Below, piece by piece: positions 36,705 to 52,137 of a stretch of 52,137 nucleotides of DNA (positions within the stretch are counted from its first letter, which is position 1; each line of letters begins with the position of its first letter). Below the pieces are notes generated by a model. The model did not search any database. It was not told the origin of the DNA and saw only the letters and a list, made by a program, of their open reading frames with translations. Origin of the DNA: Propionibacteriaceae bacterium (GTDB lineage Bacteria > Actinomycetota > Actinomycetes > Propionibacteriales > Propionibacteriaceae); NCBI GenBank assembly GCA_031271975.1, contig JAISUR010000024.1:1-52137 (forward strand). Reading direction: 5' to 3'. Made by a program: the position numbers and the translations under genes.

Positions 36705-36804
36705 GGGCACTTTTCAAGGCGGCGCGCCGCTGCGCCGTCCCGGCCGACGCTGGCCACCTAGTTCCTATCCACTCGACAACACACTCCAACAAGAGAGGTA
36801 ACAA

Positions 36805-37917
36805 ATGAAGAAAATCGCTACCGCTGCCGGCTTGGCCATCGCTGCCAGCCTGCTCCTGAGCGCCTGCCAGCCGGCGGCGACCACTGCGCCACCGGCCAGT
36901 GACGGCGGATCTGCGGCCCCCGAGGTGGGTTTCGCCGCCGACGCCACCATCGGCGTGGCTCTGCCGCAGAAGACGTCGGAAAACTGGGTCCGCGCTGAGG
37001 ACATGTTCAACGAGGGCCTGTCAGCGGCCGGTTTCAACAAGATCGTCCAGTTCGCCGACAACGGCGTTTCCGAGCAGCAGTCGCAGATCTCGGCCATGGT
37101 CGAGTCCGACGCCAAGGTCATCGTCGTGGGTGCCATCGACGGCTCTCAGTTGGGTGACCCGCTGGCCGCCGCCAAGGCCAAGGGCGCCTACATCATCGCT
37201 TATGACCGCCTGCTGAAGAACACCGACGCCGTCGACCTCTATGTGGCCTACGACCCGTATCGCGTGGGCGAACTGCAGGGCGAGGCCCTGATCGAGGGCC
37301 TGACCGCCAAGGGCTGCAATCCGTGCAACATCGAGCTGATCGCCGGCTCCGCTGACGACGCGAACTCGACTCCGTTCTTCGAGGGCGGCATGTCCAAGCT
37401 GCAGCCGAAGATCGACTCCGGCGAATATGTCGTAGTCTCCGGTCAGACGTCGTTCACCCAGGTCGCCACAGAAGGCTGGCTGGCCGAGAACGCGCAGAAG
37501 CGCTTCGACACGCTGCTCGCCGCCAACTATGCCAGCGCGACGCTCGACGGCGTGCTTTCGCCGAACGACACACTGGCCCGCGCCGCGCTGACCGCTGTTG
37601 AGACGGCCGGCAAGCCCGCCATCGTCATCACCGGCCAGGATTCCGAGGTCGAGTCCGTGAAGCTGATCCTCGAAGGCAAGCAGTATTCGACGATCAACAA
37701 GGACACCGGCGTGCTGGTGAACAAGGTCATCGAGATCATCAAGGGCCTGCAGGCCGGCACCCAGCCCACGCCGAACGGCGACCCGCTGGACAACGGCGTC
37801 ATCCAGGTGCCCGTGGTCTACCTTGACCCGGTCATCGTGACCCAGGCCAATGTCTGCACCGCATACGAAGGCGACACGGTCGTCCAGAAGGTGCTCGACG
37901 AGTCTGGCAAGTGCTGA
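36805..37917 (+). CDS. chvE: ChvE-like sugar-binding lipoprotein
   Basis: This 370-residue periplasmic-binding-type protein has a lipobox LLLSAC (Cys about 19) and a short linker rich in Ala, Pro and Thr. The ligand-binding core IGVALPQKTSENWVRAEDMFNEGL resembles ChvE/XylF. DRLLKNTDAVDLYVAYDPYRVGELQG and GLAVITGQDSEV-like segments line the sugar site. Given the neighbouring BadF kinase and nagBA, GlcNAc is a candidate ligand, but ChvE relatives usually bind galactose, xylose or arabinose. It lies 100 bp after the permease, with AGAGAGGT as ribosome binding site. Confidence 0.9.
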   Translation: MKKIATAAGLAIAASLLLSACQPAATTAPPASDGGSAAPEVGFAADATIGVALPQKTSENWVRAEDMFNEGLSAAGFNKIVQFADNGVSEQQSQISAMVESDAKVIVVGAIDGSQLGDPLAAAKAKGAYIIAYDRLLKNTDAVDLYVAYDPYRVGELQGEALIEGLTAKGCNPCNIELIAGSADDANSTPFFEGGMSKLQPKIDSGEYVVVSGQTSFTQVATEGWLAENAQKRFDTLLAANYASATLDGVLSPNDTLARAALTAVETAGKPAIVITGQDSEVESVKLILEGKQYSTINKDTGVLVNKVIEIIKGLQAGTQPTPNGDPLDNGVIQVPVVYLDPVIVTQANVCTAYEGDTVVQKVLDESGKC

Positions 37918-37944: not shown

Positions 37945-38841
37945 ATGTCGGCGTTGCTGGCCATAGATTCCGGGCAGACCGGGATCAAGGTCCGGCTGCC
38001 GGATGGCGCCCCCCGCACTTTTCCCGGGATACGCACCAACCAGCGCTTGCTGCCGCAGCTCGCCGAGGTGGTCCACGAATCGGCCCTTGGTGGCGCCGGT
38101 CCGCTGGAACTGGCCATCGGCACCACCGGCCTGACGAAGCTGGAGGCGAATCCCACCGAACTCTTGGAATTGTGCCGCGCCGACGGCGTCGAGCGGGTCG
38201 CGTTGGCACATGACTCCGTCACTTCTTTCCTGGGGGCCATGGGCTACCAGACAGGCGTCGTGGTGGCCGCCGGCACCGGCGTGGTGACCCTGGGCGTGGG
38301 CCCCACGGCCGTCTCCCGCGTGGACGGTTGGGGCAATCTGATCGGCGACGCCGGTTCTGGCTTTTGGATTGGCCGCGCCGGGCTCGACGCCGTGATGCGC
38401 GCCTTCGACGGGCGCGGCCAGGCAACCGCTCTGACGGCGTTTGCCGAGGCGGAGTTTTCCGCTCTGGACAACGCCTACATCGAATTGCAAACCGACCCGG
38501 GCCATGTGCGCCGGATCGGGTCGTTCGCCAAATACGTTTCCGACTTGGCCGCCACCGACCCGGTGTGCGCCCGGATCTGCGAGCAGGCCGGGGCAGAGTT
38601 GGCCACATCGGTCGCGGCAGCCGCCAAGAACGTTGGATTGGACGTCCCCCAGGTGGCGTTGTTGGGCGGCGTTTTCCGGTCGCCGGCGATTCGCGAGGCA
38701 TGTGTGGCCGCGCTGCGAATGCGCTGGCCGGGCTTCCAGCCAGCCGAACCCCTGGGCGACATCTTGGATGGCGCCGCCGCGCTGGCGTCTCTACCAGCCG
38801 GGCATCCCCTGGCCGCACAGGTGTTGGTTGCGGCTGTTTGA
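37945..38841 (+). CDS. BadF/BadG-family N-acetylglucosamine kinase
   Basis: This 298-residue ATPase of the BadF/BadG/BcrA family has the actin-like fold motifs LLAIDSGQTGIKVRL (phosphate-1), VVVAAGTGVVTLGV (phosphate-2), GWGNLIGDAGSGFWIGR and VALLGGVFRS (adenosine). This group includes eukaryotic and bacterial GlcNAc kinases. It follows chvE by 27 bases with a GGGGGG ribosome binding site, and nagB/nagA come next, so it probably makes GlcNAc-6-phosphate from imported or released GlcNAc. Glucosamine kinase is the main alternative. Confidence 0.85.
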   Translation: MSALLAIDSGQTGIKVRLPDGAPRTFPGIRTNQRLLPQLAEVVHESALGGAGPLELAIGTTGLTKLEANPTELLELCRADGVERVALAHDSVTSFLGAMGYQTGVVVAAGTGVVTLGVGPTAVSRVDGWGNLIGDAGSGFWIGRAGLDAVMRAFDGRGQATALTAFAEAEFSALDNAYIELQTDPGHVRRIGSFAKYVSDLAATDPVCARICEQAGAELATSVAAAAKNVGLDVPQVALLGGVFRSPAIREACVAALRMRWPGFQPAEPLGDILDGAAALASLPAGHPLAAQVLVAAV

Positions 38842-38945: not shown

Positions 38946-39749
38946 ATGGATGTGATCATTTGCCGCGACGACGACGAGGTCGGGGCGTACGCCGCGGCCA
39001 AGGTGGCCAAGGTGGCCGAGGCGGCGCAGAAGGTCGGCAAGAATGTGGTGATCGGAGTGGCCACGGGCTCGTCGCCGCTTGCCACCTACACGGCATTGGC
39101 CGCGCTGATCCAGGCCGGGAAGCTGGACTTGAGCCAGGCCTCCGCCTTCGCGTTGGACGAGTATGTGGGCTTGCCAGCGGGCCATCCGCAGAGCTATCGC
39201 GAGGTCATCCGGCGCACGGTCGCCGAGCCGCTGGGCCTGCGCCCGGAGCGTGTACACGTGCCCGATGGTTTCGCCCAGGACTTGGAACGGGCTGCCCGCG
39301 ATTATGAGACGGCGATCCGGGACGCCGGGGGAGTGGACGTGCAGATCCTCGGCGTGGGGTCCAATGGCCACATCGGTTTCAACGAGCCGACATCTTCGCT
39401 GAGTTCGCGCACCCGCATCAAGACGCTGACCGCGCAAACCCGCAACGACAACGCCCGTTTCTTCGACAGCTCGGAGTTGGTGCCGCAGCACTGCCTCACA
39501 CAAGGATTGGGCACCATCATGGACGCGCGGCACTGCGTGCTGGTGGCCTCGGGGGAAGGCAAGGCCGACGCCATCAAGGCTGTCGTGGAAGGGCCTGTCA
39601 CGGCCATGGTCCCCGGATCGGTGCTGCAGTTGCATCCCAAGGCCACTGTGATCGTGGACCAGCGGGCGGCGTCCAAGCTGGAACTGATTGACTACTACCA
39701 GCACATGTATCAGAACTTGCCCGATTGGCAACGGGTGGTGCTGGCTTAG
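38946..39749 (+). CDS. nagB: Glucosamine-6-phosphate deaminase
   Basis: This 267-residue enzyme converts glucosamine-6-phosphate to fructose-6-phosphate and ammonia. GVATGSSPLATYTAL binds phosphate, FALDEYVGLP holds the catalytic Asp, and GVGSNGHIGFNEPTSS holds the catalytic His and Glu. It has the length and ring-opening residues of NagB. ATG 38946 follows GGGAGG; an ATG at 38941 out of frame overlaps it. It is followed by nagA after 14 bases, so the two are co-transcribed. Confidence 0.96.
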   Translation: MDVIICRDDDEVGAYAAAKVAKVAEAAQKVGKNVVIGVATGSSPLATYTALAALIQAGKLDLSQASAFALDEYVGLPAGHPQSYREVIRRTVAEPLGLRPERVHVPDGFAQDLERAARDYETAIRDAGGVDVQILGVGSNGHIGFNEPTSSLSSRTRIKTLTAQTRNDNARFFDSSELVPQHCLTQGLGTIMDARHCVLVASGEGKADAIKAVVEGPVTAMVPGSVLQLHPKATVIVDQRAASKLELIDYYQHMYQNLPDWQRVVLA

Positions 39750-39763
39750 GGAGGTGGGCGGCG

Positions 39764-40849
39764 GTGATCATCGCGGGCAATCTCTTGTTCGAAGGCGCCT
39801 TCGAGCCGGGTTGGCTCGAATGCGCCGATTCCCGTATCACCCGCGTCGGGCGCGGCCGTTTTGACGGCACGCCGGACCTGGCCCCGGAAGGGTTCGTGGT
39901 ACCGGGATTCGTGGATGTGCACTCCCACGGCGGAGGTGGGGCTGCGTTCACCGAGGGAGCCGACGCGGCACGGACGGCGTTGGCCGCGCATCGCGCCCAC
40001 GGCACCACGACGATGATCGCCTCGCTGGTCACGGCCACCATTGGGGAATTGCTGCAGCAGGTGGAGGCCTTGGTCCCGCTGGTCGTGTCGGGCGAGTTGG
40101 CCGGCATCCACCTGGAGGGACCGTGGATTTCCCCGCAGCAGAAGGGCGCGCACGATCCGGGAAAACTGGCCGCCCCGCTGGATGATGCCGTAACGGCCAT
40201 CACCTCGTTGCCCCCCGGCTTGGTGCGGATGGCCACCCTCGCCCCGGAACTGCCGGGCGGCCTCGCTGCGATCCGGCGTTTGCGGGCGGCAGGCATCGTC
40301 GTCGCGCTCGGCCACACCGCGGCCGACTACACGCTTGCCCGACGCGGTTTCTCGGTTGGAGCCAGCGGCGTGACGCACTTGTTCAACGCCATGCCCGACC
40401 TGCTGAAACGCGATCCCGGACCGGTATTGGCCGCCCTGGAGTCGGACGCCTGGCTGGAATTGATTTTCGACGGCCATCACGTGGCCGCGCCGTTGGCGGC
40501 GTTCATCTGCCGCCGCTACGCCGAGCGGGTGGTATTGATCACCGACGCCATGGCCGCCGCGTGTTTGGGAGATGGCGACTACACGCTGGGTGGCCTGCCG
40601 GTGCGCGTCGCGGGCGGCGTGGCGCGCCTCACGACCACCGGTGCGCTGGCCGGCAGCACAATCACTTTGGCGCACGCCGTGGCGAACGCCGTCGCCGCCG
40701 GAGTCGAGTTGGCCGCCGCGGTGCGCTGCGCCACGGCCAATGCCGCCGCCTACCTTGGCATCTCCAACGTGGGCCGGCTGCGTGCCGGAAACTTGGCCAA
40801 TGTGCTCGAACTGGACGCGTCCGGACGGCTGTTGCGCGTTCTCGCCTGA
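39764..40849 (+). CDS. nagA: N-acetylglucosamine-6-phosphate deacetylase
   Basis: This 361-residue amidohydrolase removes the acetyl group from GlcNAc-6-phosphate. VPGFVDVHSHGGGG gives the metal-binding HxH, GIHLEGPWIS the metal Glu, GHTAADY and THLFNAM further His ligands and substrate contacts, and LITDAMAAA the catalytic Asp. GTG 39764 has GGGAGGTGG upstream; an earlier in-frame ATG at 39725 lies inside nagB and adds a non-family stretch. Last gene of its transcription unit. Confidence 0.94.
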   Translation: MIIAGNLLFEGAFEPGWLECADSRITRVGRGRFDGTPDLAPEGFVVPGFVDVHSHGGGGAAFTEGADAARTALAAHRAHGTTTMIASLVTATIGELLQQVEALVPLVVSGELAGIHLEGPWISPQQKGAHDPGKLAAPLDDAVTAITSLPPGLVRMATLAPELPGGLAAIRRLRAAGIVVALGHTAADYTLARRGFSVGASGVTHLFNAMPDLLKRDPGPVLAALESDAWLELIFDGHHVAAPLAAFICRRYAERVVLITDAMAAACLGDGDYTLGGLPVRVAGGVARLTTTGALAGSTITLAHAVANAVAAGVELAAAVRCATANAAAYLGISNVGRLRAGNLANVLELDASGRLLRVLA

Positions 40850-41027: not shown

Positions 41028-42155
41028 GTGATCAACAGGATCCCCCTTGGTGAACCGACGGGCCCGAATGTGGCCAGCCGCGGCTTCCGGCCACGCGACG
41101 GCAGGCAGCAGAATCTGGCCTTGGTCATCCAGGCCCTCTACGACAATCCGGGGCTGTCGCGGGCCGATTTGGCGCGGCTGACGGGCCTGACGCGGGTGAC
41201 GATCTCCGACATCGTCGCCGAATTGCTGGCCGACGGCCTGCTCGTGGAAACGGGCGCTTCGGACAAGGTCCGTCCCGGAAAACGCGCTACGAAACTGCAA
41301 GTGGCCGCAGACTCCCGAGCAATCCTGGCCGTGGACATCTCTGGCGAAACGACACTCGTGGGCGCGGTCTATTCGCTGGGCGGCGAAGTGCTGCACCGCA
41401 GTTCGCGCCCGCTCAGCAAGTCCGATGCCGCGTTGTCGGAACTCCGCGGCCTGCTGGGTGAACTCGTCGCCGCCGCGGAAAGCCCGATTCTCGGTGTTGG
41501 CATCGGCACGCCGGGCACGGTGGAAGGCTCGGTGGTGACCGCCGCCAATCTCGACTGGCATTTCCTCGATCTCGCCAAGTCGTTGGCGGCGGTAACCCAC
41601 GCTCCCATCGAAGTGGAGAACGACGCCAACGTCGCCGCCTTGGCCGAGCGGCGGTTCGCCGGAGGAGAGGACGACCTGATTCGCATCCAGATTTCCCGCG
41701 GCGTGGGCTCCGGTCTGCTGCTGGGAGGGGTGGCGATCACCGGGTCATCTGGCGCCGCGGGCGAAATCGGCCACGTGGTCATCGAACACAATGGCACACC
41801 CTGTTCCTGCGGGAAGCGGGGATGCCTGGAGACGTGGATATCCGTGCCCGCGCTCTCCGGGCGAATCGAGTCCGACCCGGACGGTAGGGAAGAGACTCTC
41901 GCCGAAGCTGGGAGGCGGCTGGGGATGGCCCTCTCTCCGATTATCGGCATGTTGGACCTCGTGGACGTCGTCGTCGGGGGTCCGGCGGAACTGGTCGCAG
42001 GCCCATTCTTGGAAGCGGCCCAAGACCTGGTCCGGGAGCGTATCGGCATCGAGTCGCGTCGGCCGGTCCAGCTTCGGCAATCAACGTTGGGCGATGACGC
42101 GGTCCTGCTGGGGGCCGCGGCGCTCGTCCTGCGCAATCAACTTGGCGTCTACTGA
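41028..42155 (+). CDS. ROK-family transcriptional regulator of the chitobiose cluster
   Basis: This 375-residue regulator has a winged helix (RADLARLTGLTRVTISDIVAELLADGLLVE, about residues 45-74) and a ROK domain with AVDISGETTLVGAVYSL, GVGIGTPGTVEG, EIGHVV and the zinc motif CSCGKRGCLETW. It is the first gene of an operon with a DasABC-like importer and the chitobiose enzymes. It has a dyad over its own promoter that resembles one at nagB, so it may coordinate both units in response to GlcNAc or GlcNAc-6-P. In Streptomyces the comparable genes answer to DasR, a GntR-type protein. Confidence 0.9.
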   Translation: MINRIPLGEPTGPNVASRGFRPRDGRQQNLALVIQALYDNPGLSRADLARLTGLTRVTISDIVAELLADGLLVETGASDKVRPGKRATKLQVAADSRAILAVDISGETTLVGAVYSLGGEVLHRSSRPLSKSDAALSELRGLLGELVAAAESPILGVGIGTPGTVEGSVVTAANLDWHFLDLAKSLAAVTHAPIEVENDANVAALAERRFAGGEDDLIRIQISRGVGSGLLLGGVAITGSSGAAGEIGHVVIEHNGTPCSCGKRGCLETWISVPALSGRIESDPDGREETLAEAGRRLGMALSPIIGMLDLVDVVVGGPAELVAGPFLEAAQDLVRERIGIESRRPVQLRQSTLGDDAVLLGAAALVLRNQLGVY

Positions 42156-42176: not shown

Positions 42177-43532
42177 ATGAAGCGCACGATAGCAATGGCG
42201 GCTCTGTTGGCCGTCGGCGCCTTGACGCTGTCCGCATGCGGCGGTCCCGCCGCGACCACACCGGCCGCGGATCCGTCGGCGGCCGAACCGGCGGGCCAGA
42301 ACATCACCTTGTGGTTGGCCGGCGGCGACACCCCGGATGCCCTGCGTGAGTATCTCAAGACCGAGTACAACAAGGCCACCGGCGGCACGCTCACCATCGA
42401 AGAGCAGTCTTGGGGTGACTTGGTCGCCAAGTTGACCACGTCGCTGCCGGACGCGGCCAACACCCCCGACGTGGTCGAGGTTGGCAACACGCAGTCGCCC
42501 ACCTTCACCAACGTGGGCGCTTTCGCCGACATCTCCGACATGTACGCCGAGCTTGGCGGCGACAAGCTGCTGCAGTCCTTCGTGGAAGTCGGCAAGGTCG
42601 ACGGCAAGAACTACACCCTGCCTTACTACTTCGGTTCGCGTTACATGTTCTACCGCAAGGATGTCTGGAAGGCGGCGGGCGTCGAGGTGCCGACCACGCT
42701 GGACGAGTTCAACAAAGCCGTCGTGACGATCGCCGAGAAGAACCCGAACAACATCAAGGACTTCTCCGGCTTCTTCATCGGCGGCCAGGACTGGCGCAAC
42801 GGCATCTCGTGGGTCTTCGCCAACGGCGGCGACTTGGCCAAGTACGAGAACGGCCAGTGGACCTCCACGCTGAGCGACCCGAACACCATCAAGGGCCTGC
42901 AACAGTTGCAGGACATCCAGAAAGCCGCCTCGAACGCGCCCAGCACCGCCAAGGATGAGAGCCCGTGGCTCTACATCAACGACTCCGACGCCGTGACGAA
43001 CGACGACGGCACGGTCACCGAGACGTCCTTCAACGCCGCCACGATCATGGCCCCCGGCTGGGCGCACTGGTCCATCGGCGACTTGGTGAAGAACGACGAG
43101 GGCACCGAGGTGCGCCAGTGGAACTCCGACAAGTTCGGCGTGTTCGTCCTGCCCGGCAACGACGGCAAGCCCGCCCCGGTGTTCGCCGGCGGCTCCAACA
43201 TCGGCATCTCCGCGGCTTCCCAGAAGCAGGAAGGCGCCCGCGAGCTGCTGAAGATCATCTTCTCCGCCGAATATCAACAGCTGCTCGGCCAGAACGGGCT
43301 TGGCCCGGCCAACTCGGACTACACGTCCGCGCTGGGCGACGACGAGTTCGCCAAGGCGCTGACCGAGTCGGCGTCCAATTCCAAGCTGACCCCGGCCGCG
43401 CCGGGTTGGGCGACGGTCGAAGGATCGATGAAGCTGGAGGAGTTCTTCTCCAAGGTTTCGGACGGTGGTGACATCGCCGCGTTGGCCGCGGAATACGACG
43501 CCATCATCACGCCGATGCTGAACGGGAGCTAA
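42177..43532 (+). CDS. Sugar-binding lipoprotein, DasA/NgcE-like
   Basis: This 451-residue extracellular solute-binding protein has a lipobox LTLSAC (Cys about 20) and an Ala/Pro/Thr linker. The binding core starts at NITLWLAGGDTP. TPDVVEVGNTQSPTFTNVGAFADIS, YYFGSRYMFYRKDVWKAAGVEVPTTLDEF and VFAGGSNIGISAASQKQEGA are typical of family-1 oligosaccharide-binding proteins. Its position next to chitobiose-type enzymes makes N,N'-diacetylchitobiose the likely ligand. AAAGGA precedes ATG 42177. A strong hairpin follows the stop. Confidence 0.88.
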   Translation: MKRTIAMAALLAVGALTLSACGGPAATTPAADPSAAEPAGQNITLWLAGGDTPDALREYLKTEYNKATGGTLTIEEQSWGDLVAKLTTSLPDAANTPDVVEVGNTQSPTFTNVGAFADISDMYAELGGDKLLQSFVEVGKVDGKNYTLPYYFGSRYMFYRKDVWKAAGVEVPTTLDEFNKAVVTIAEKNPNNIKDFSGFFIGGQDWRNGISWVFANGGDLAKYENGQWTSTLSDPNTIKGLQQLQDIQKAASNAPSTAKDESPWLYINDSDAVTNDDGTVTETSFNAATIMAPGWAHWSIGDLVKNDEGTEVRQWNSDKFGVFVLPGNDGKPAPVFAGGSNIGISAASQKQEGARELLKIIFSAEYQQLLGQNGLGPANSDYTSALGDDEFAKALTESASNSKLTPAAPGWATVEGSMKLEEFFSKVSDGGDIAALAAEYDAIITPMLNGS

Positions 43533-43595: not shown

Positions 43596-44480
43596 ATGAA
43601 ACGAATCCAAATCACCCCGTACGCGCTGCTCACCCCGGCCATCGTCGTCCTGCTGGCGGCGCTGGCCTACCCAGTGGGCTGGCAGTTCTGGACGTCGCTG
43701 ACCAAGTACGGCCTGAAACAGCAGTTCGGACAACCGCCGGAGTTCGTCGGCGCCGAGAACTACGCCGCCGTTTTCACCAATCCGGAAATCTGGGGCGTGA
43801 TCGGCCGATCCGTCGCGTTCTGCCTCGTCAACGCGGTCGTCACTGTCTTGATCGGCATGGGGTTGGCGCTCCTGATGAACGCCGCGGCGAAAGCCGCCCG
43901 GCTCGCCCTGCAAGTGGCCATGTTGCTGGCCTGGGCGATGCCCGTGGTGGCCGCGATGACGGTGTGGCTTTGGCTGTTCAACTGGCACCACGGCGTGATC
44001 AACTGGCTGCTCACCCAAGCGGGTGTGGACATGACCGGCCACAATTGGCTGGAGGATCCGCTCAGCTTCTATTTCGTGGCCACCGTGATCGTGGTGTGGA
44101 TGTCGGTCCCGTTCGTGGCGTTTTCGATCTTCGCCGGCTTGACGCAGGTCGCCCCGGAGATTCTGGAGGCGGCCGAGGTGGACGGCGCCACCGGTTGGCA
44201 GCGTTTCCGGACCATCATCATCCCGATGATCCGCCCAGTGCTGATGATCGTGCTGCTGCTGCAGGTGATCTGGGATCTGCGGGTGTTCACCCAGATCCAA
44301 ATGCTGCAGGACGCCGGCGCCGACTACACCTCCACGAACCTACTGGGCACATTCATCTACCGCACCGGCGTTGGCGCCGGCGACTTCGGCATGGCGGCCG
44401 CGATGTCGGTCTTCGTGTTGGTGTTGACGATGCTGTTGTCCGCGCCCTACGTGCGTTCGCTGATGAAGGAGGAAAACTGA
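43596..44480 (+). CDS. Sugar ABC transporter permease (DasB/MalF-like)
   Basis: This 294-residue permease has six helices and the binding-protein-dependent EAA loop ILEAAEVDGATGWQRFRTIIIPMIRP (about residues 189-214). It resembles the first permease of oligosaccharide importers such as DasB or MsmF. It is co-translated with the next permease (TGATG). No ATPase gene lies in the operon, so it probably uses a shared MsiK-like ATPase. Confidence 0.9.
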   Translation: MKRIQITPYALLTPAIVVLLAALAYPVGWQFWTSLTKYGLKQQFGQPPEFVGAENYAAVFTNPEIWGVIGRSVAFCLVNAVVTVLIGMGLALLMNAAAKAARLALQVAMLLAWAMPVVAAMTVWLWLFNWHHGVINWLLTQAGVDMTGHNWLEDPLSFYFVATVIVVWMSVPFVAFSIFAGLTQVAPEILEAAEVDGATGWQRFRTIIIPMIRPVLMIVLLLQVIWDLRVFTQIQMLQDAGADYTSTNLLGTFIYRTGVGAGDFGMAAAMSVFVLVLTMLLSAPYVRSLMKEEN

Positions 44481-45334
44481 TGGCCGCCAAAGCCAAAGAC
44501 AAGATGCGCCCCGGCAAAGCGGCCGCCTCCGCGGCGGCTGTGGTCCTCACGCTGATCTGGGTCTTCCCGGTCTACTGGATGCTCTCCTCGTCGCTGTTGC
44601 CAAACACCGTGCTCACCGCCACCACGCCCACGTTCTTCCCCGCTGGCGGCAGCCTGAACAACTTCGCCGCCGTGCTGTCTTCCGGCACGTTCTTCGCGGC
44701 GCTCGGGACCAGCTTGGCCGTCACGCTCATCGCGGTGTTCTTCTGCCTGTTGTTCGCCTTCTGCGCCGCGCTGGCCATCAGCCGCTATCACTTCAAAGGG
44801 CGGACGAGCTTCGTCCTGGCCGTGCTGTTCATCCAGATGCTGCCGGCCGAGGGCCTGTTCATCGCGCAGTACAAGCTGCTCTCGTCGGCAGGGCTGCTGA
44901 ACAACGTGCTGGGGCTGTCGGTGCTGTACGTGGCGGCGGTGATCCCGTTCACGGTCTGGATGCTGCGCGGCTTCGTAGCTGGCGTCCCCGCTGACCTGGA
45001 AGAAGCCGCCATGGTGGACGGCTGTTCGCGCACCGGGGCGTTCTTCCGCATCACCTTCCCGCTGTTGGCTCCCGGTTTGGTCGCCTCCGGCGTCTATGCC
45101 TTCCTGCAGGCGTGGAATGAGTTCACGATAGCCCTGGTCATCATGCAGTCCGAGGCTTCCCGGACGCTGCCGCTGTGGCTGCGCACGTTCATCCAGGCCT
45201 CCGCCACCCGGGAGACGGACTGGGGTCAGGTAATGGCCGCTTCCACGCTGGTGGCGGTGCCGGTGATCATCTTCTTCTTGCTGGTCCAGGGCCGGATGAC
45301 GTCCGGTTTGGTGGCCGGCGCCGTGAAAGGCTGA
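44480..45334 (+). CDS. Sugar ABC transporter permease (DasC/MalG-like)
   Basis: This 284-residue permease has six helices with the EAA loop LEEAAMVDGCSRTGAFFRITFPLLAP (about residues 174-200) and a long N-terminal cytosolic segment. It is the second permease of the DasABC-like importer. ATG 44480 shares one base with the upstream stop; GAGGAAAA is the ribosome binding site. The following gene starts 6 bases after its stop. Confidence 0.9.
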   Translation: MAAKAKDKMRPGKAAASAAAVVLTLIWVFPVYWMLSSSLLPNTVLTATTPTFFPAGGSLNNFAAVLSSGTFFAALGTSLAVTLIAVFFCLLFAFCAALAISRYHFKGRTSFVLAVLFIQMLPAEGLFIAQYKLLSSAGLLNNVLGLSVLYVAAVIPFTVWMLRGFVAGVPADLEEAAMVDGCSRTGAFFRITFPLLAPGLVASGVYAFLQAWNEFTIALVIMQSEASRTLPLWLRTFIQASATRETDWGQVMAASTLVAVPVIIFFLLVQGRMTSGLVAGAVKG

Positions 45335-45339
45335 GGCAA

Positions 45340-47508
45340 GTGGAAAACAGGGCTATCAAGGCGGTGGTGCTCGCCGCCGGCCATGACGTGACGACCCGGG
45401 AGTTGCTGCTGAAGCCTCTGGGCAACGCGACGGTCATCGAGTTGGTGTTGCGCAACGTGCTGGCGGTGGTCGCCAAGCAAGATGTCATCATCGTGGTCGA
45501 CGAGCACGACGGCTCCGTGCGCGACCACCTGGGAGATTCATGGCGCTACGTGGTGCAGACCGTGCAGGCCGGGACAGGGGACGCCGTGCGCTGTGCCCGC
45601 TTCGAGTTGGAGGGTTTCGACGGCGACGTGCTGATCGTCTACGCGGACACGCCTTTGCTGCGGGCCGATTCGCTCAAAGGCCTGCGCAACCGGCATCTGC
45701 TCAAGAACGCGCGGTTTTCGCTGCTTTCAGCGCGGCTGGACGATCCCGGGCATTATGGCCGCATCGTGCGCGACGAGTCGGGCGCCGTGGCTGGAATCGT
45801 CGAAGCCACGGATCTGGACGGCCGCACGCGCGAAGTCAAGGAGATCAACGTCGGCGCGTATGTCGTCGACAACGCGCTGCTGATCCCGCAATTGGACGAG
45901 ATGGCCAAGTATGGCGAGCATCGGCTGACCGAACTCGCCAAACGGCTGATCGGCCAGGGCGTCAAGGTCGCCTCCTATGTGACAGTGGACACCGACGAGG
46001 TGCATGGGATCAACACCCCCGCCGAGTTGCAGGCGGCCAGCGACATCGTGCTGAAACGGCTTTTCGCACCGCGCCGGGAGGTGGAGACCGGCGAAATCGC
46101 CTTCGGCACCGGCGGCTGGCGGGCCCGGATCGGCGAAGGCTACACGCTGCATAACGTGCGGCGGCTGTGCCAGGCCATCGCCAACGAGACGGCGCGGCGG
46201 TCGCTGGAAGCCAAAGGTGTGGTCATCGGGGGAGACCGCCGCTTCCTGTCGGCGGAGAGCGTGCGGACCGCCGCCGAGGTCTTCGCGGGCAACGACATTC
46301 GGGTGACCATCCTGCCCGACGACGTGCCTACGCCGCTGGTGACGTTCGCGGCGCCTTTCCTGGACGCCGCCTACGGGCTGGTTTTCACCGCCTCGCATAA
46401 TCCGCCACAGTGGAACGGCCTGAAGGTGTTCCGATCCGACGGCTCCCTGCCGCTGGACGACGAGACCAGCCGCTATTCCGCGGAGGCAAACTCACTGCGC
46501 AACCAGGACATCATCGCGCTGGACTACGAGACGGCCGCGGCGGCCGGTGTGGTGCGCACCGTGGACCTGACCAACGAATACGTCGACGCGATCGAGCGGA
46601 TAGTGGACGTGGAAGCCATGCGGCAGTCCGGGCTGCGCATCATCGTCGACCCGATGTACGGTACCTCCCAGCGCACTTTGGGAATGGTGCTCTCGGACGC
46701 CCGCGCCCGGGTGGAGTTCATCCACGAACGCCACAATCCGCTGTTCGGCGGGCGTTCCCCGGCTCCCGACGAGGAGGCCCTGTCCACGATGATCGAGGCG
46801 ATCAAGTCCACCGGCGCCTACGACCTGGGCATGGCCACCGATGGGGACGCCGATCGCATCGCGATCGTGAGCGAGGCCGGCGAGTACATTTCCACCAACG
46901 ACCTGCTGCTGCTCATCTACTGGTATTTGCACGAGGTGCGCCGGGAGTCCGGCGGGGTTGTCCGCAACCTGGCGACGACACATCTGCTGGACCGCCTCGC
47001 GGCAGCCTTCGGCGAGCGGTGCTTCGAGGTGCCGGTGGGATTCAAGCATGTGACCGCGGCCATGCTGGATCACGACTGCGTCCTGGGCGGCGAGTCATCC
47101 GGCGGCCTGACGATCCGGGGCCACATCCTGGGGAAGGACGGCGTGTTCGCGTGTGCGCTGGTGGTGGAAATGCTCGCCCGCACCGGCAAGTCGATCAGCG
47201 AACTGCGCGAGCACATCTATTCGCTGGTGGGCCGGATGTACGCCCTGGAAGCGGCCGTGCCCGCAACGCCGCAAATGCGCGTCGAGGTGCCCAGGCGCCT
47301 CGACCCGGCGGGCTTGGCCGAGGTCGCCGGGCAGCCGGTCCAGCGCGTGGACACCCTGGATGGGATCAAGATCTACCTACCGGGGGATTCTTGGGTGCTG
47401 CTGCGCTTCTCGGGCACCGAGCCGGTGTTGCGCGTGTTCGTGGAAGCGCAGACACCTCAGGACGCCGAACGGCTATTGTCGTGGGCCAAGGAGGTGGTCT
47501 CGGCGTGA
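45340..47508 (+). CDS. Fusion of a GlmU-like nucleotidyltransferase with a phosphohexomutase
   Basis: This 722-residue protein joins two enzymes. Residues 1-245 resemble the GlmU uridyltransferase: VVLAAG, QAGTGDAVRCA, YADTPLL, LDDPGHYGRIVRDESGAVAGIVE, EINVGAYV and EVHGINTPAEL match GlmU block by block. The catalytic loop GxGTRM is changed: position 18, Arg in E. coli GlmU, is Thr (LAAGHDVTTREL), although Lys25 remains. Residues 250-722 are a complete phosphohexomutase: active Ser352 in TASHNPP, metal site DGDADR (501-506), GGESSGG (583-589) and RFSGTEP (689-695). The mutase should interconvert GlcNAc-1-P and GlcNAc-6-P. GTG 45340 has GAGG; its stop overlaps the GH94 start (GTGA). No left-handed beta-helix acetyltransferase domain is present. 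Confidence 0.85.
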   Translation: MENRAIKAVVLAAGHDVTTRELLLKPLGNATVIELVLRNVLAVVAKQDVIIVVDEHDGSVRDHLGDSWRYVVQTVQAGTGDAVRCARFELEGFDGDVLIVYADTPLLRADSLKGLRNRHLLKNARFSLLSARLDDPGHYGRIVRDESGAVAGIVEATDLDGRTREVKEINVGAYVVDNALLIPQLDEMAKYGEHRLTELAKRLIGQGVKVASYVTVDTDEVHGINTPAELQAASDIVLKRLFAPRREVETGEIAFGTGGWRARIGEGYTLHNVRRLCQAIANETARRSLEAKGVVIGGDRRFLSAESVRTAAEVFAGNDIRVTILPDDVPTPLVTFAAPFLDAAYGLVFTASHNPPQWNGLKVFRSDGSLPLDDETSRYSAEANSLRNQDIIALDYETAAAAGVVRTVDLTNEYVDAIERIVDVEAMRQSGLRIIVDPMYGTSQRTLGMVLSDARARVEFIHERHNPLFGGRSPAPDEEALSTMIEAIKSTGAYDLGMATDGDADRIAIVSEAGEYISTNDLLLLIYWYLHEVRRESGGVVRNLATTHLLDRLAAAFGERCFEVPVGFKHVTAAMLDHDCVLGGESSGGLTIRGHILGKDGVFACALVVEMLARTGKSISELREHIYSLVGRMYALEAAVPATPQMRVEVPRRLDPAGLAEVAGQPVQRVDTLDGIKIYLPGDSWVLLRFSGTEPVLRVFVEAQTPQDAERLLSWAKEVVSA

Positions 47509-49919
47509 GATACGGCCACTTTGACACCGAGCGGCACGAGTACGTCATCGACCGCCCCGAGGCGGTGCCCGTGTCGTGGATCAACTACTTGGGTGTCAAA
47601 GACTATTGCGCGGTGCTAAACCAGCACGCCGGGGGATACTCGTTCTTCCGTTCGTCCGAGCGCGGCCGGGTGACGCGTTTCCGGCCGAACGCCGTCCCGC
47701 AAGACCGGCCCGGCCACTGGGTGTACCTGCGCGACGGAGCGGAATTCTGGTCGCTGACGAGCCAACCTTGTGGGGCCGAAGCCCGTTACACCACACGGCA
47801 CGGGCTGTCCTATTCCATCTTCGAATGCGAGCATCGCGGCATATTCGCGACCCAGCGGGTGTTCGTGCCGCTGGACGAGGACGGCGAGGTCATCGAGGTC
47901 ACGCTCACCAACCGCTCCAGCGAACCGCGCAGCCTGGATGTCTTCGGCTACGTCGAGTTCTCCTACCATTCGATCACCATCGACAACCAGAACTTCCAAA
48001 TGTCGCGCTATGCGGCTGGATCGTCGCAGCGCGATGGCGTGATCAGCTACGACTTCTACTACGAGCCGTGGACATACCACTTCTTCACCTCCAACGTCCC
48101 CGAGTGCGGGTTCGACGCCTTGCGAGACGCGTTCATCGGCGAGTGGCGCGACGAGTCCCGGCCCGTGGCGGTCGATGCCGGAAGCTGTTCCGGGTCGCAA
48201 GGCACCACCGGGAACCACTGCGGCGCGTTGCAGCACCGCGTCGAGTTGGCACCCGGCGAGACGAAACAAGTCTGCTACCTGTTGGGATACGGCGGCCACG
48301 ACGCCGGCGTGGCCATGCGGGAACGTTTCGCCAAGCCGGAGCAGGTGCAGCGGGCCTTCGACGACTTGGCTCGGTATTGGGACCAGAAGCGTTCCAAGCT
48401 GGCCGTAGCGACCCCTTCCGAGGCGATGAACGAACTGCTGAACGTGTGGACGTTGTTCCAGGCCGAGACCTGCGTGGTCTGGTCGCGTTTCGCCTCATTC
48501 GTCGAGGTGGGCGGGCGCGCCGGGTTGGGCTATCGCGACACCGCGCAGGATTCGATGGCGGTGGCGCACACCAATCCCGCCAAGACCAAGCAGCGGCTGC
48601 TGGAGCTGCTGCGCGGCCAAACTTCCGCCGGCTTCGGATTGCATCTGTTCGACCCGCTGCTTTTCGGCGGCCCGCGGCCGGACATCCCAGTGGGGGTGAA
48701 ACTGCCCACCATCGTTCCCAGCCGGGCAGAAGACCAACTCCACTCCATCGCGGACGCGTGCTCCGACGACCACCTTTGGCTGGTATGGGCGGTGCTCAAT
48801 TACGTGATCGAGACCGGGGACGAGGGCTTCTTGAGCCAACTGGTGCCGTTCGCGGACGGCGGCGAGGACAGCGTCTACGGCCACCTCAAACGCGCGGTGG
48901 ATTTCACCACCGCCCACCAGGGCGCACACGGGATCGCCCAAGGATTGCGGGCTGACTGGAACGACTGCCTCAACTTGGGCGGGGGAGAATCCGCGCTGGT
49001 CACGTTTCTGCACGTGTGGGCCGCCGAATCGCTGGCCCGCGCTGCCGAACATCTGGGCCGCGCCGACGACGCCGCGGACTACCGGGCGTTGGCCGCGGCG
49101 ACGCGGAAACGCGCCGACGAAGTGCTCTGGGATGGGCGCTGGTATGCGCGGGGTTTCACCAAGGCCGGGCAGGTGATCGGATCGCAGTCCAACGCCGAGG
49201 GGAAGATATTCCTGGAGCACCTGCCCTGGGCGGTCATCACCGGCTGCGCTCCCAGGGATCGCGCGCTCTTGGCCATGGACGCCGTGGGAGAACTGCTCGC
49301 CAGCGAATATGGCGCGCACCTGGTGTGGCCGTCGTACACCCAGATTGACGACTCGGTCGGCTACGTGACGCGGGTCTATCCGGGAGTCAAGGAAAACGGG
49401 GCGGTTTTCTGCCACCCCAACGCTTGGCCGGTGATCGCCGAGGCCATGTTGGGCCGCGGCGACCGCGCGATGGCGTACTACCAGGCGCTGGCCCCCTACA
49501 ACTTCAACGATGCCGCCGAGGTGCGCCGCGCCGAACCGTACGTCTACTGCCAGTTCCTTTACGGCCGGGACCACCGGTTGTTCGGCCAGGCCGAGAATCC
49601 CTGGCTGACGGGGACGGCGGGCTGGATGTACCAGGCCGCTACCCGGTACATCTTGGGCGTCCGCCCCGACTTTGACGGGTTGGTCATCGACCCGTGTATC
49701 CCCGCTGGCTGGGAGGGTTTCCAGATGGTCCGGCAATGGCGTGGGACGCGCTACGACATCACCGTGCGCAATCCGGACCACGTGTGCGCGGGTGTGGTCC
49801 GCGCGGCGGTTGGCGGACAGGATGTGCCGACCGTCTGGGACGGCCAGGTGTCGCGGCGATGCCTCAAACTCCCGCTGTCGCCATGCGAAGCGGTGTCGGT
49901 GGAAGTGTGGTTGGGCTGA
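47505..49919 (+). CDS. chbP: GH94 N,N'-diacetylchitobiose phosphorylase
   Basis: This 804-residue GH94 enzyme is predicted to split N,N'-diacetylchitobiose with phosphate into GlcNAc-1-phosphate and GlcNAc. WINYLGVKDYCAVLNQHAGGYSFFRS, DNQNFQMSRYAAGS and especially AETCVVWSRFASFVEVGGRAGLGYRDTAQD follow my recollection of Vibrio chitobiose phosphorylase, where cellobiose phosphorylases instead have a SRSASYFESGIGRGMGFRDSNQD-type segment. GLRADWNDCLNLGGGE holds the general-acid Asp (D484 or D487 of DWND). The length matches Vibrio ChbP (about 800). No signal peptide: the enzyme is cytosolic and acts on imported sugar. GTG 47505 overlaps the mutase stop. Confidence 0.88.
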   Translation: MRYGHFDTERHEYVIDRPEAVPVSWINYLGVKDYCAVLNQHAGGYSFFRSSERGRVTRFRPNAVPQDRPGHWVYLRDGAEFWSLTSQPCGAEARYTTRHGLSYSIFECEHRGIFATQRVFVPLDEDGEVIEVTLTNRSSEPRSLDVFGYVEFSYHSITIDNQNFQMSRYAAGSSQRDGVISYDFYYEPWTYHFFTSNVPECGFDALRDAFIGEWRDESRPVAVDAGSCSGSQGTTGNHCGALQHRVELAPGETKQVCYLLGYGGHDAGVAMRERFAKPEQVQRAFDDLARYWDQKRSKLAVATPSEAMNELLNVWTLFQAETCVVWSRFASFVEVGGRAGLGYRDTAQDSMAVAHTNPAKTKQRLLELLRGQTSAGFGLHLFDPLLFGGPRPDIPVGVKLPTIVPSRAEDQLHSIADACSDDHLWLVWAVLNYVIETGDEGFLSQLVPFADGGEDSVYGHLKRAVDFTTAHQGAHGIAQGLRADWNDCLNLGGGESALVTFLHVWAAESLARAAEHLGRADDAADYRALAAATRKRADEVLWDGRWYARGFTKAGQVIGSQSNAEGKIFLEHLPWAVITGCAPRDRALLAMDAVGELLASEYGAHLVWPSYTQIDDSVGYVTRVYPGVKENGAVFCHPNAWPVIAEAMLGRGDRAMAYYQALAPYNFNDAAEVRRAEPYVYCQFLYGRDHRLFGQAENPWLTGTAGWMYQAATRYILGVRPDFDGLVIDPCIPAGWEGFQMVRQWRGTRYDITVRNPDHVCAGVVRAAVGGQDVPTVWDGQVSRRCLKLPLSPCEAVSVEVWLG

Positions 49920-50824
49920 TGGGCAGCGTCGTAGCGGTAGATGTGGGCGGCACGTCGGTGAAAGCGGCGCTCGTTTCCGAGTTGCCCGCGCGTGAGATTC
50001 TCCAGTTCCCAACGCCGCCCGCTGGCGGGCAGGATGTCGTGGCGGCCGTCATTTCGGCCATCGAAGCCGTGGGAGGCAGCCCCGAGGCGATTGGGCTGGC
50101 CGTGCCCGGCATCGTCGACGAAACGGCGGGCGAAGTGCGGCAGGCCAAGAATTTGGGCTGGGAAGACTTGCCGTTGGCGGCCCTGGTGGGCGAGCGGTTC
50201 GGCCTCCCAGTGGGATTGGGCCACGATGTGCGGGCCGCCGCGCTGGCCGAATACCAGTTGGGGGCGGGACAGGGCGCCGACCGCCTGGTGTTCGTCGGCA
50301 TAGGGACCGGCATATCGGCCGCGGTGTTGGTGGGCGGGCGCCCGCTCAACGGCTCGGCGGGCGAAATCGGCCACGGGGGTGCGGTGAGCGGCGACCTGTG
50401 CGCCTGCGGCGGCCGCGGCTGCCTGGAGTCGTATGCGTCGGCGGCGGCCATCGCGCGGCGCTACGCGGCGCTGACGGGACAGCAGGTTGCCGGGGCCGCC
50501 GAGGTGGCGCAGGCGGTGTCTGCTCGGGATCGGATTGCCCAAGAGGTCTGGGACGATGCGGTGGCGGGGCTGGCGCGTGAACTCGCTGGGATCGTGCGGC
50601 TGCTCGGCGAGGTCCGCATCGTCATCGGCGGCGGGCTGTCGCTGGCCGGGCCGGCGCTGCTCGATCCGCTGCGGGAAACGGTTCAAGCGCTGCTGACCGT
50701 GCACCCGGCGCCGGAAATCCTGCCTGCGGCATTCGGGGACCGGGCGGGAATTCACGGCGCGGCGATGCTGGCCAGGCGGCAACTCGCCCGACATGCTGGA
50801 GAGGTGGCCGCAACGACCGGTTAG
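49919..50824 (+). CDS. ROK-family sugar kinase (probable GlcNAc kinase)
   Basis: This 301-residue ROK protein has no DNA-binding domain, so it is a kinase. SVVAVDVGGTSVKAALV is the ATP loop, LAVPGIVDE and GHDVRAAALAE the catalytic Asp region, GEIGHGG the sugar-binding segment, and CACGGRGCLES the zinc site. As the last gene of the operon, starting in the stop codon of the GH94 gene, it probably phosphorylates the GlcNAc freed by phosphorolysis. Glucokinase activity is an alternative, since ROK kinases are often broad. Confidence 0.85.
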   Translation: MGSVVAVDVGGTSVKAALVSELPAREILQFPTPPAGGQDVVAAVISAIEAVGGSPEAIGLAVPGIVDETAGEVRQAKNLGWEDLPLAALVGERFGLPVGLGHDVRAAALAEYQLGAGQGADRLVFVGIGTGISAAVLVGGRPLNGSAGEIGHGGAVSGDLCACGGRGCLESYASAAAIARRYAALTGQQVAGAAEVAQAVSARDRIAQEVWDDAVAGLARELAGIVRLLGEVRIVIGGGLSLAGPALLDPLRETVQALLTVHPAPEILPAAFGDRAGIHGAAMLARRQLARHAGEVAATTG

Positions 50825-51014: not shown

Positions 51015-52137
51015 TTACGTGGTGGGGGTGACTGCTGGCGATGTCCAGGCTGGTTGCGCGGTGTAGCCGGACTTGCTGATAGTCACTTTCACCGTGATCT
51101 GCTTGCCCGCATCAGCCTTGGCGAGCTTGTAGGACGACTTCGTTGCTTTGGAAATAGCCTTGCCATCGCGGTACCACTGATATTTCAACGACGGCACCGG
51201 CTGCCAGCCCACCGAAGAAACTTTCACCGTTTGGCCAACTACATAGCCAGCCGCTGGAGCAACCAAAGACAACTGCCCAACCTGCTGGTAGGGCCACAAC
51301 CAGCTATTCGACAACACTTTCGTGGTGTAGCCGGTGGCGCTACCGGTCACTTTCACACTGATTTCTTTGCCAACGTCGCCCGAAACCAGGGTGTAAGAGT
51401 CGTTAACCGCGCCCTTGATCGCTTTACCCGCCCGGTACCACTGCACCTGCACCTTCGGGGCCACTCCAGCAGACCAAACGCCACGCTCAACACTCAACGT
51501 GTTGCCAACTCCCAGCGTCCCGGCGACCTGCAACTGCTCAGGGTCAACACCCAACACGCCCTTGGCGACCTTCACCGATTTAGAGGTCTTCGAGGCGGTG
51601 CTATAGCCCGCCTTCGATCCGGTCACCTTCACCGTCAACTTCTTGCCGGCATCAGCGCCAACCAACGTGTACGAATCCTTCGTCGCGCCCTTGATCGCTT
51701 TGCCCGAGCGATACCACTGATAGGCAAGCGCCACCGAAGTATCATCAGCCTTCGCCGCCTGCCACGGGCTCACCGACACCTGAACGGTGTTGTCAACCTG
51801 CGCCGTTCCCGAAATCACCGGCGTGTAGGTCTTCAACGACGCTTTAGCCGCCTTCTTAGACTTGGAAGTCTTAGAAACAGCCTTGTATCCATCCTTGCTG
51901 CCAGTGACGCTCACCGTGATCTTCTTGCCCACGTCGCCAGCAGCAACCTTGTACGTGCTGGCAACAGCGCCCTCGATGTTCTTGCCGTTCGCCTTCCACT
52001 GGTAGGCCAACTCAACCGGCGCAGGACCCCAAGCGGACACCTTCGCGGTCAGCACCTCGTCAACCTTCGCCGTCCCAGAGATACTCGGCGTCTTCGCAGA
52101 CAACGTCACAACCTTATAGGTCAGTGTCAGCGTTCCT
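51015..52137 (-). CDS. Ig-like repeat surface protein (C-terminal part, runs off the window)
   Basis: This is the 3' part of a gene whose start is beyond the right edge; the frame stays open to the last base. The visible ~374 residues are four tandem units of about 90 residues, each with a hydrophobic strand ending in YQWYRxGKxIxGAT, a SYxLxxxDxGKxxTVKVTGSKxGY segment, and a Lys/Ser/Thr-rich tail. Such Ig-like beta domains are found in exported proteins of actinobacteria, often as spacers in cell-surface proteins or glycosidases. The C terminus has no sortase motif, membrane anchor or catalytic domain. The upstream part will decide its role. Confidence 0.85.
   Translation of the reverse strand, partial: GTLTLTYKVVTLSAKTPSISGTAKVDEVLTAKVSAWGPAPVELAYQWKANGKNIEGAVASTYKVAAGDVGKKITVSVTGSKDGYKAVSKTSKSKKAAKASLKTYTPVISGTAQVDNTVQVSVSPWQAAKADDTSVALAYQWYRSGKAIKGATKDSYTLVGADAGKKLTVKVTGSKAGYSTASKTSKSVKVAKGVLGVDPEQLQVAGTLGVGNTLSVERGVWSAGVAPKVQVQWYRAGKAIKGAVNDSYTLVSGDVGKEISVKVTGSATGYTTKVLSNSWLWPYQQVGQLSLVAPAAGYVVGQTVKVSSVGWQPVPSLKYQWYRDGKAISKATKSSYKLAKADAGKQITVKVTISKSGYTAQPAWTSPAVTPTT

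Follow-up and report, generated by a model that had tools for sequence, protein, structure and literature searches.

The locus and its fusion protein

The protein considered here is encoded near one end of a 52,137-nucleotide (nt) contig of a Propionibacteriaceae bacterium (JAISUR010000024.1, from a genome of 2.70 Mb in 49 contigs); this whole stretch is referred to as the window. An earlier note, made from the sequence alone, had described the protein as a fusion of a GlmU-like domain with a phosphohexomutase, and this is borne out by phmmer, Pfam and the GlmU models (Table 1). The two-part make-up of the 722-residue protein is far above chance; on comparison with solved structures by phmmer, the N-terminal part matched GlmU over residues 8-241 (E 7e-30) and the C-terminal part matched a mutase (E 9e-66). 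The gene begins with a GTG placed 5 nt past the stop codon of the preceding permease gene, and its TGA stop overlaps by 4 nt with the GTG start of the gene for a GH94 phosphorylase.

In the N-terminal domain, the Pfam model NTP_transferase covers residues 26-213 at 34 bits (cut-off 21.2), and the NCBIfam GlmU models cover residues 2-253 at 143-158 bits, every one of them under its own cut-off because the acetyltransferase half is absent. For TIGR01173 (GlmU), the window protein scores 143 bits against a cut-off of 366.85, and the related fusions described below score 91-180 bits. Pfam detected no hexapeptide (left-handed beta-helix acetyltransferase) domain, residues 252-722 being taken up by the mutase instead. 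The GlmU motifs GTG, ADTPLL, YGRI...GIVE, EIN and GINTPAEL, listed in the earlier note, were all found in the translation. An AlphaFold2 (AF2) model of the domain, with a predicted local distance difference test score of 91.2, has the GlmU fold; Foldseek placed GlmU entries at ranks 1-37 (first E 2e-27) and RmlA at rank 38. Forms of GlmU that are empty or inhibitor-bound score nearly as well as the top match, which holds uridine diphosphate N-acetylglucosamine (UDP-GlcNAc), and the ranking therefore carries no information on the ligand. Of the two structure models, A1 drew on 36 of the 47 fusions and A2 on 25 of the 47, omitting the shrunken Bifidobacteriaceae forms and pre-dating loci that were added later.

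The C-terminal half is a phosphohexomutase by every motif test. PF02878, PF02879, PF02880 and PF00408 extend over residues 254-712, each above its Pfam cut-off, and with the full model only mutases were present among the 50 best Foldseek matches listed, the best being 1tuo of T. thermophilus. The motifs TASHNP, DGDADR and SGTEP, which we take to be the serine, metal and phosphate loops, respectively, are all present and invariant in the 36 aligned fusions, in keeping with the previous description of this half as intact. The equivalog models for GlmM are not reached (TIGR01455, 172 bits with a cut-off of 447.55; TIGR03990, 287 bits with a cut-off of 439). Judged from the neighbouring genes for GH94, NagA and NagB, the mutase would interconvert N-acetylglucosamine-1-phosphate (GlcNAc-1-P) and N-acetylglucosamine-6-phosphate (GlcNAc-6-P).

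The GH94 neighbour scores 906 bits against the chitobiose phosphorylase 1v7v and 497 bits against the best cellobiose phosphorylase; therefore, uptake of chitobiose and its phosphorolysis to GlcNAc-1-P and GlcNAc is the most likely task of the operon, which agrees with the chitobiose setting suggested earlier. The ROK-family kinase encoded downstream probably acts on the free GlcNAc. Directly upstream of the nag genes (window 35361-37917, plus strand), sugar ABC permease-like and substrate-binding-like proteins were read by eye, and a second sugar transporter may thus adjoin the operon. At the far end of the window (51015-52136, minus strand) there is an open-ended frame of repeated immunoglobulin-like units (YQWYR...GKAIKGA...DAGKKLTVKVTGSK), which probably belongs to a protein of the cell surface or wall.

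Table 1 Features of the fusion gene and of the surrounding operon, in window coordinates
Feature	Position	Strand	Details
BadF-type kinase, NagK-like	37945..38841	+	NF046058 53 bits, far under cut-off 370
NagB glucosamine-6-phosphate deaminase	38946..39749	+	TIGR00502 267 bits, cut-off 236.9
NagA-like GlcNAc-6-phosphate deacetylase	39725..40849	+	TIGR00221 201 bits, slightly under cut-off 225.65
ROK/NagC-type transcriptional regulator	41028..42155	+	Pfam ROK and winged-helix
ABC transporter solute-binding protein	42177..43532	+	Pfam SBP_bac_1
ABC transporter permease 1	43596..44480	+	Pfam BPD_transp_1
ABC transporter permease 2	44483..45334	+	Pfam BPD_transp_1
Fusion protein, coding sequence	45340..47508	+	722 amino acids, GTG start, TGA stop
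GlmU-type nucleotidyltransferase (GT-A) domain	45340..46074	+	Residues 1-245; phmmer, GlmU models, AF2/Foldseek
Replaced catalytic loop HDVTTRELLLKPL	45382..45420	+	Residues 15-27; R18 deleted, Leu at K25 position
Phosphohexomutase, PGM/PMM domains I-IV	46093..47505	+	Residues 252-722; Pfam, Foldseek
Presumed phosphoserine loop TASHNP	46387..46404	+	Residues 350-355; T350, S352, H353, N354 invariant in 36/36 aligned fusions
Presumed metal loop DGDADR	46840..46857	+	Residues 501-506; D501, G502, D503, D505, R506 invariant in 36/36
Presumed phosphate-binding loop SGTEP	47410..47424	+	Residues 691-695; invariant in 36/36 aligned fusions
GH94 N,N'-diacetylchitobiose phosphorylase, probable GlcNAc-1-P source	47505..49919	+	Pfam GH94 domains
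ROK-family sugar kinase	49919..50824	+	Pfam ROK 190 bits

The replaced loop and the retained pocket

Relatives were collected with a scan of genome contigs, from which the best 80 of 123 were kept, and further loci were added from genome searches. Among those best 80 of 123, 38 fusions extend into the N-terminal domain and are 49-86% identical to the window protein, the closest (86%) being that of locus L001, also from the Propionibacteriaceae. After removal of copies, 47 distinct fusions were available, the window's included: 31 from Actinomycetota (chiefly Propionibacteriaceae, with kin of Cellulomonas and Promicromonosporaceae), 10 from Chloroflexota and 6 from a Bifidobacteriaceae branch. 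A fusion fragment beside a GH94 gene (L039) is cut by a contig end, has no N-terminal domain and was left out of the counts. For comparison, 23 separate GlmU proteins were used, 22 of them from fusion-bearing genomes (the window's own included) and one from E. coli.

Arg18 and Lys25 of the GxGTRM loop are essential in GlmU. Both were found in all 23 separate GlmU proteins by alignment, including two (L148 and L163) with the loops GQGKRM and GEGVRM. GxGTR occurs in none of the 47 fusions, Lys25 is likewise absent from all of them, and Arg18 is present in only one (L028). The loop of the window protein, as of all 31 actinobacterial forms, is 3 residues shorter than that of GlmU, and AF2 modelled its replacement as a short helix (residues 17-22). 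The earlier reading of this loop as GHDVTTREL is found in the translation, and its two interpretations fared differently. Arg18 is indeed gone, but its replacement by Thr holds only in an ungapped register; the gapped alignment places Arg18 in the deletion. The claim that Lys25 remains was rejected as a misalignment: Leu occupies the Lys25 column in the window protein, and the lysine of its LLLKPL motif aligns with His28 of E. coli GlmU, a non-conserved position where the fusions have R, Q, H, K, E or S.

The change in the loop is shared by the fusions as a family. A check of homologues for a normal GTRM loop at this place had been proposed, and with a GxGTR loop in 0/47 the change is fixed in the set and therefore not a local accident; a sequencing error or an accident in one genome was rejected on the same count. 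A displaced arginine, in the pattern [STG]R-x-[LF]L, is found in 31/31 actinobacterial and 6/6 Bifidobacteriaceae fusions and in 0/10 from Chloroflexota.

The pocket around the loop has a different record. Gln76, Asp105, Glu154, Asn169 and Asn227 are presumably functional residues of GlmU. When the Bifidobacteriaceae branch is set aside, all 41 remaining fusions keep Q76, G81, T82, D105, G140, E167 and N169; N227 is kept in 40 of them and E154 in 36, the other 5 having Asp. Over all 47 fusions, Q76, G81 and D105 are universal and N227 is found in 46. A column test that did not depend on a list of residues gave a similar contrast. The 23 GlmU have 37 near-invariant columns; with a column counted as kept when at least 90% of the fusions retained it, 0/7 in the loop and 19/30 elsewhere were kept in the 41 fusions (Fisher p 0.003), a result unchanged by the inclusion of the L148 and L163 GlmU.

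The Bifidobacteriaceae fusions (L027, L029, L030, L032, L033 and L035) have a shrunken domain and stand on a long branch (0.85). They retain Q76, G81 and D105, and dN/dS, the ratio of nonsynonymous to synonymous substitution rates, is about 0.28 in the two pairs of them tested.

Distribution, operon linkage and history

The fusion is rare. It was found in 6/196 genomes of the window's order, in 1/396 genomes of its phylum (the window's own), in 5/400 Chloroflexota genomes and in 11/198 genomes of the order of another genome, G593; in the phylum-scale searches only the two best candidates per genome were scored. Within the window's order, a further 36 of the 196 genomes encode only a stand-alone mutase (42-47% identity).

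In 22 of 23 fusion genomes searched, there is a separate GlmU-like protein with both Arg18 and Lys25, 21 of these proteins scoring above the family cut-off. In the draft assembly G594 (locus L038), a TIGR01173 search at E 1e-25 returned no GlmU beyond the fusion, which is likely explained by missing contigs. Hence, the N-terminal domain is not needed for the GlmU reaction, and its service as a stand-in for a missing GlmU was rejected.

In 36 of 46 relatives, the fusion has a same-strand GH94 gene no more than 1.2 kb away, downstream in 35 and upstream in 1. By group, this adjacency is observed in 27/30 Actinomycetota, 5/6 Bifidobacteriaceae and 4/10 Chloroflexota. The sixth Bifidobacteriaceae fusion is cut off by a contig end. 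The contigs of L012, L017 and L035 end within 50 nt after the fusion, and a GH94 of 64-68% identity is encoded in these genomes; in the genomes of L011 and of six Chloroflexota fusions, either no GH94 was found or just a single one, 34-40% identical. The association was also examined from the phosphorylase side in two orders, apparently with the same genome draws for the fusion and GH94 queries (394 genomes). Fusions are present in 17 of these, and 16 of the 17 have a GH94 of at least 57% identity or the window's own. The other 377 genomes have no fusion; in two of them such a GH94 occurs, each time truncated by a contig end before the expected place of the fusion, and in three a GH94 of 44-46% identity is surrounded by 11-12 kb that contain no fusion. 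At one Chloroflexota locus (L028 891-7918, plus strand), the fusion directly follows a ROK regulator, a solute-binding protein and two permeases, and no GH94 gene was found in the 8 kb downstream; this fusion may be fed by a different sugar route.

In a tree of the N-terminal domain (68 rows, midpoint root, 21 GlmU), a 100/100 branch separates GlmU from the fusions. Among the latter, the actinobacterial and Bifidobacteriaceae forms make up one 100/100 group nested among those of Chloroflexota, with GH94-linked Chloroflexota fusions (L024, L124-L126) as its nearest neighbours. This nesting means that the device may have arisen in Chloroflexota, and the tree suggests a single origin, probably there, with the tie to chitobiose coming later. 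The domain is under purifying selection, being constrained though less so than the mutase; its dN/dS is 0.06-0.40 in 12/12 close pairs.

Derivation of the domain from the stand-alone nucleotidyltransferase of L119 was considered and rejected on opposite family scores, since the L119 protein reaches 112-117 bits with Arch_glmU/AglF and just 41 with TIGR01173, and the window fusion scores 143 bits to TIGR01173 and 66 to Arch_glmU. In L119 (8614-12178, minus strand) and L116 (8464-11899, plus strand), relatives of the mutase adjoin a GalK-like GHMP kinase, and in L119 the stand-alone nucleotidyltransferase, which has a GLGTRM loop, also adjoins the stand-alone mutase. Perhaps this arrangement represents another sugar-1-phosphate branch point.

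Proposed role and comparison with known systems

It appears slightly more probable than otherwise that the GlmU domain is catalytically dead but still a binding site for UDP-GlcNAc or a related uridine nucleotide, and that it adjusts the mutase, GlcNAc-1-P thereby being shared between wall synthesis and catabolism. The domain may then sense the level of a wall precursor instead of making it. The triphosphate-handling loop has been lost, and the pocket is largely intact on its uracil, metal and sugar side, where the product lies. By analogy with GMPPA (see below), the simplest mechanism would be that the domain binds UDP-GlcNAc (or UTP or GlcNAc-1-P) without turnover and that its bound state alters the activity of the attached mutase. 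UDP-GlcNAc would be the most expected ligand, as the end product of the competing branch: the GlcNAc-1-P made by chitobiose phosphorylase could be converted to UDP-GlcNAc by the cellular GlmU or to GlcNAc-6-P, for NagA and NagB, by the mutase. An ample supply of UDP-GlcNAc would activate the mutase and lead to the sugar being burnt, and a shortage would restrain the mutase so that GlcNAc-1-P stays available for the wall; which way the effect runs is a guess. A fuller version, given slightly less than an even chance, is that a covalent UDP-GlcNAc gauge derived from a former GlmU sets the split between wall and catabolism during growth on chitobiose, having perhaps originated in Chloroflexota before the tie to the phosphorylase and been handed on as an operon component.

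Several observations weigh against the sensing role. No allosteric route between the N-terminal domain and the mutase is visible. Tyr197, invariant in 21 GlmU, is replaced in 41/41 fusions, and Gln79 is kept in just 23 of 41. The six Bifidobacteriaceae fusions have lost the stretch 139-168, which includes the sugar subsite, and have Pro in place of T82 and Asp in place of N169. Because of these forms, the contrast between loop and pocket weakens over all 47 fusions (0/7 against 11/30, p 0.08), and as they nevertheless keep the operon, binding in the pocket cannot be essential there. Six deep-branching Chloroflexota fusions have neither a GH94 neighbour in the DNA examined nor a close chitobiose-type GH94 elsewhere, from which it follows that the chitobiose scheme cannot have been the starting point. 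The dN/dS of the N-terminal domain exceeds that of the mutase half in 10/12 pairs, and the displaced arginine of the actinobacterial forms could be catalytic.

Three readings had been offered in the earlier note: a sensor, a transferase of changed specificity and an active branch-point enzyme. The sensor is now the best supported, given the retained pocket, the lost loop and the separate GlmU, and the other two lose weight because Lys25 is gone everywhere; the displaced arginine, conserved in the actinobacterial forms, could still serve either of them. On this basis the domain might be a rebuilt, active nucleotidyltransferase in which the displaced helix arginine, perhaps together with further residues, replaces Arg18 and Lys25, yielding a bifunctional enzyme with uridyltransferase or pyrophosphorylase and mutase activities, maybe with another nucleotide or in the reverse direction. 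The constancy of the arginine pattern in the two groups that have it, the metal-site residues D105 (47/47) and N227 (46/47) and the sugar pocket retained in 41/41 would suit such an enzyme. We regard it as unlikely, as Lys25 is lost in every fusion, the actinobacterial loop is 3 residues shorter, the arginine pattern is missing from all ten Chloroflexota forms and 22 of the 23 fusion genomes already have a GlmU-like protein with both residues.

To a similarly small degree of probability, the domain could be a structural relic that aids only the folding or oligomerisation of the mutase, its pocket being left over from GlmU or kept by the fold. The faster evolution of the domain in 10 of 12 pairs fits this explanation, as do the shrunken Bifidobacteriaceae forms, which are still found in the operon (5/6 beside GH94) despite their branch of 0.85, and it is in this family that a relic is most plausible. 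Elsewhere, identical pocket residues in 41/41 fusions across two phyla and over long branches, while the intervening loop varies, argue against it, together with the purifying selection in 12/12 pairs.

Less probable still is a domain that holds GlcNAc-1-P alone, with no nucleotide, and channels it to the mutase or shields it from GlmU: the sugar-side residues G140 and N169 (41/41) and E154 (36/41) and the adjoining GlcNAc-1-P producer in 36/46 accord with it, but Q76 and G81, which face uracil in GlmU and are kept in 47/47, would have no task, mutases that stand alone (42-47% identity) manage without the domain, and the six Bifidobacteriaceae fusions have no sugar subsite.

If the sensing role holds, its interest lies in the position of GlcNAc-1-P, which, once released by chitobiose phosphorylase, needs a single step to become UDP-GlcNAc and likewise a single step to enter catabolism. 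The split between wall and catabolism would be directly testable with one single-chain pseudo-uridyltransferase/mutase, and the domain would offer a ready-made UDP-GlcNAc-responsive module for sensors. In the open-access literature, no description was found of a GlmU-type/mutase fusion of this make-up or of the division of GlcNAc-1-P in users of chitobiose phosphorylase.

The N-terminal domain resembles that of GlmU in sequence and fold and in Q76, G81 and D105 (47/47) and T82, G140 and N169 (41/41 non-shrunken forms). Unlike GlmU, the fusions have no GxGTRM loop or Lys25, Tyr197 is replaced, the beta-helix half is missing and the scores are under the cut-offs. By membership the window protein is not a GlmU, since the loop, the family score and the acetyltransferase half are all lacking, and caution is advised against naming such proteins GlmU on homology alone. 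With the PGM/PMM/GlmM mutases the fusion shares the four domains and the serine, metal and phosphate motifs; it differs in the added GlmU-type domain and in scores below the GlmM cut-offs.

In the Vibrio chitobiose pathway, chbP is followed by the conversion of GlcNAc-1-P to GlcNAc-6-P by 'several other mutases or kinases', as stated in a passage of PMC9364117. The order of phosphorylase and conversion is thus the same as that proposed here, and the passage contains no mention of a GlmU-type domain. The genome of the L038 fusion also encodes, at L201 1805-4312 (minus strand), the reverse arrangement to the window protein: an 835-residue protein of the mannose-1-phosphate guanylyltransferase type. 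It resembles the fusion in that a nucleotidyltransferase domain precedes a PGM-type domain within a single chain, and differs in that its transferase loop is intact (GGEGSRLRPLTIGRPKPM, GSRLRPLT...PKP) and is accompanied by a beta-helix, while TASHNP and DGDADR were not seen by eye in its mutase part.

The closest parallel in manner of working, and in that respect only, is GMPPA, which passages of PMC11228364 and PMC9168903 describe as a non-catalytic protein that binds GDP-mannose and inhibits GMPPB. Going by these passages, both would be nucleotidyltransferase homologues that have lost catalysis, bind a product and exert feedback on a partner, binding by the fusion being predicted. GMPPA differs in belonging to another nucleotidyltransferase branch, in having a beta-helix and in regulating its own catalytic paralogue within a complex, whereas the dead domain of the fusion is covalently attached to a mutase, the enzyme of the competing branch. 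Should the proposal hold, prokaryotes would have a clear counterpart of GMPPA in the fusion.

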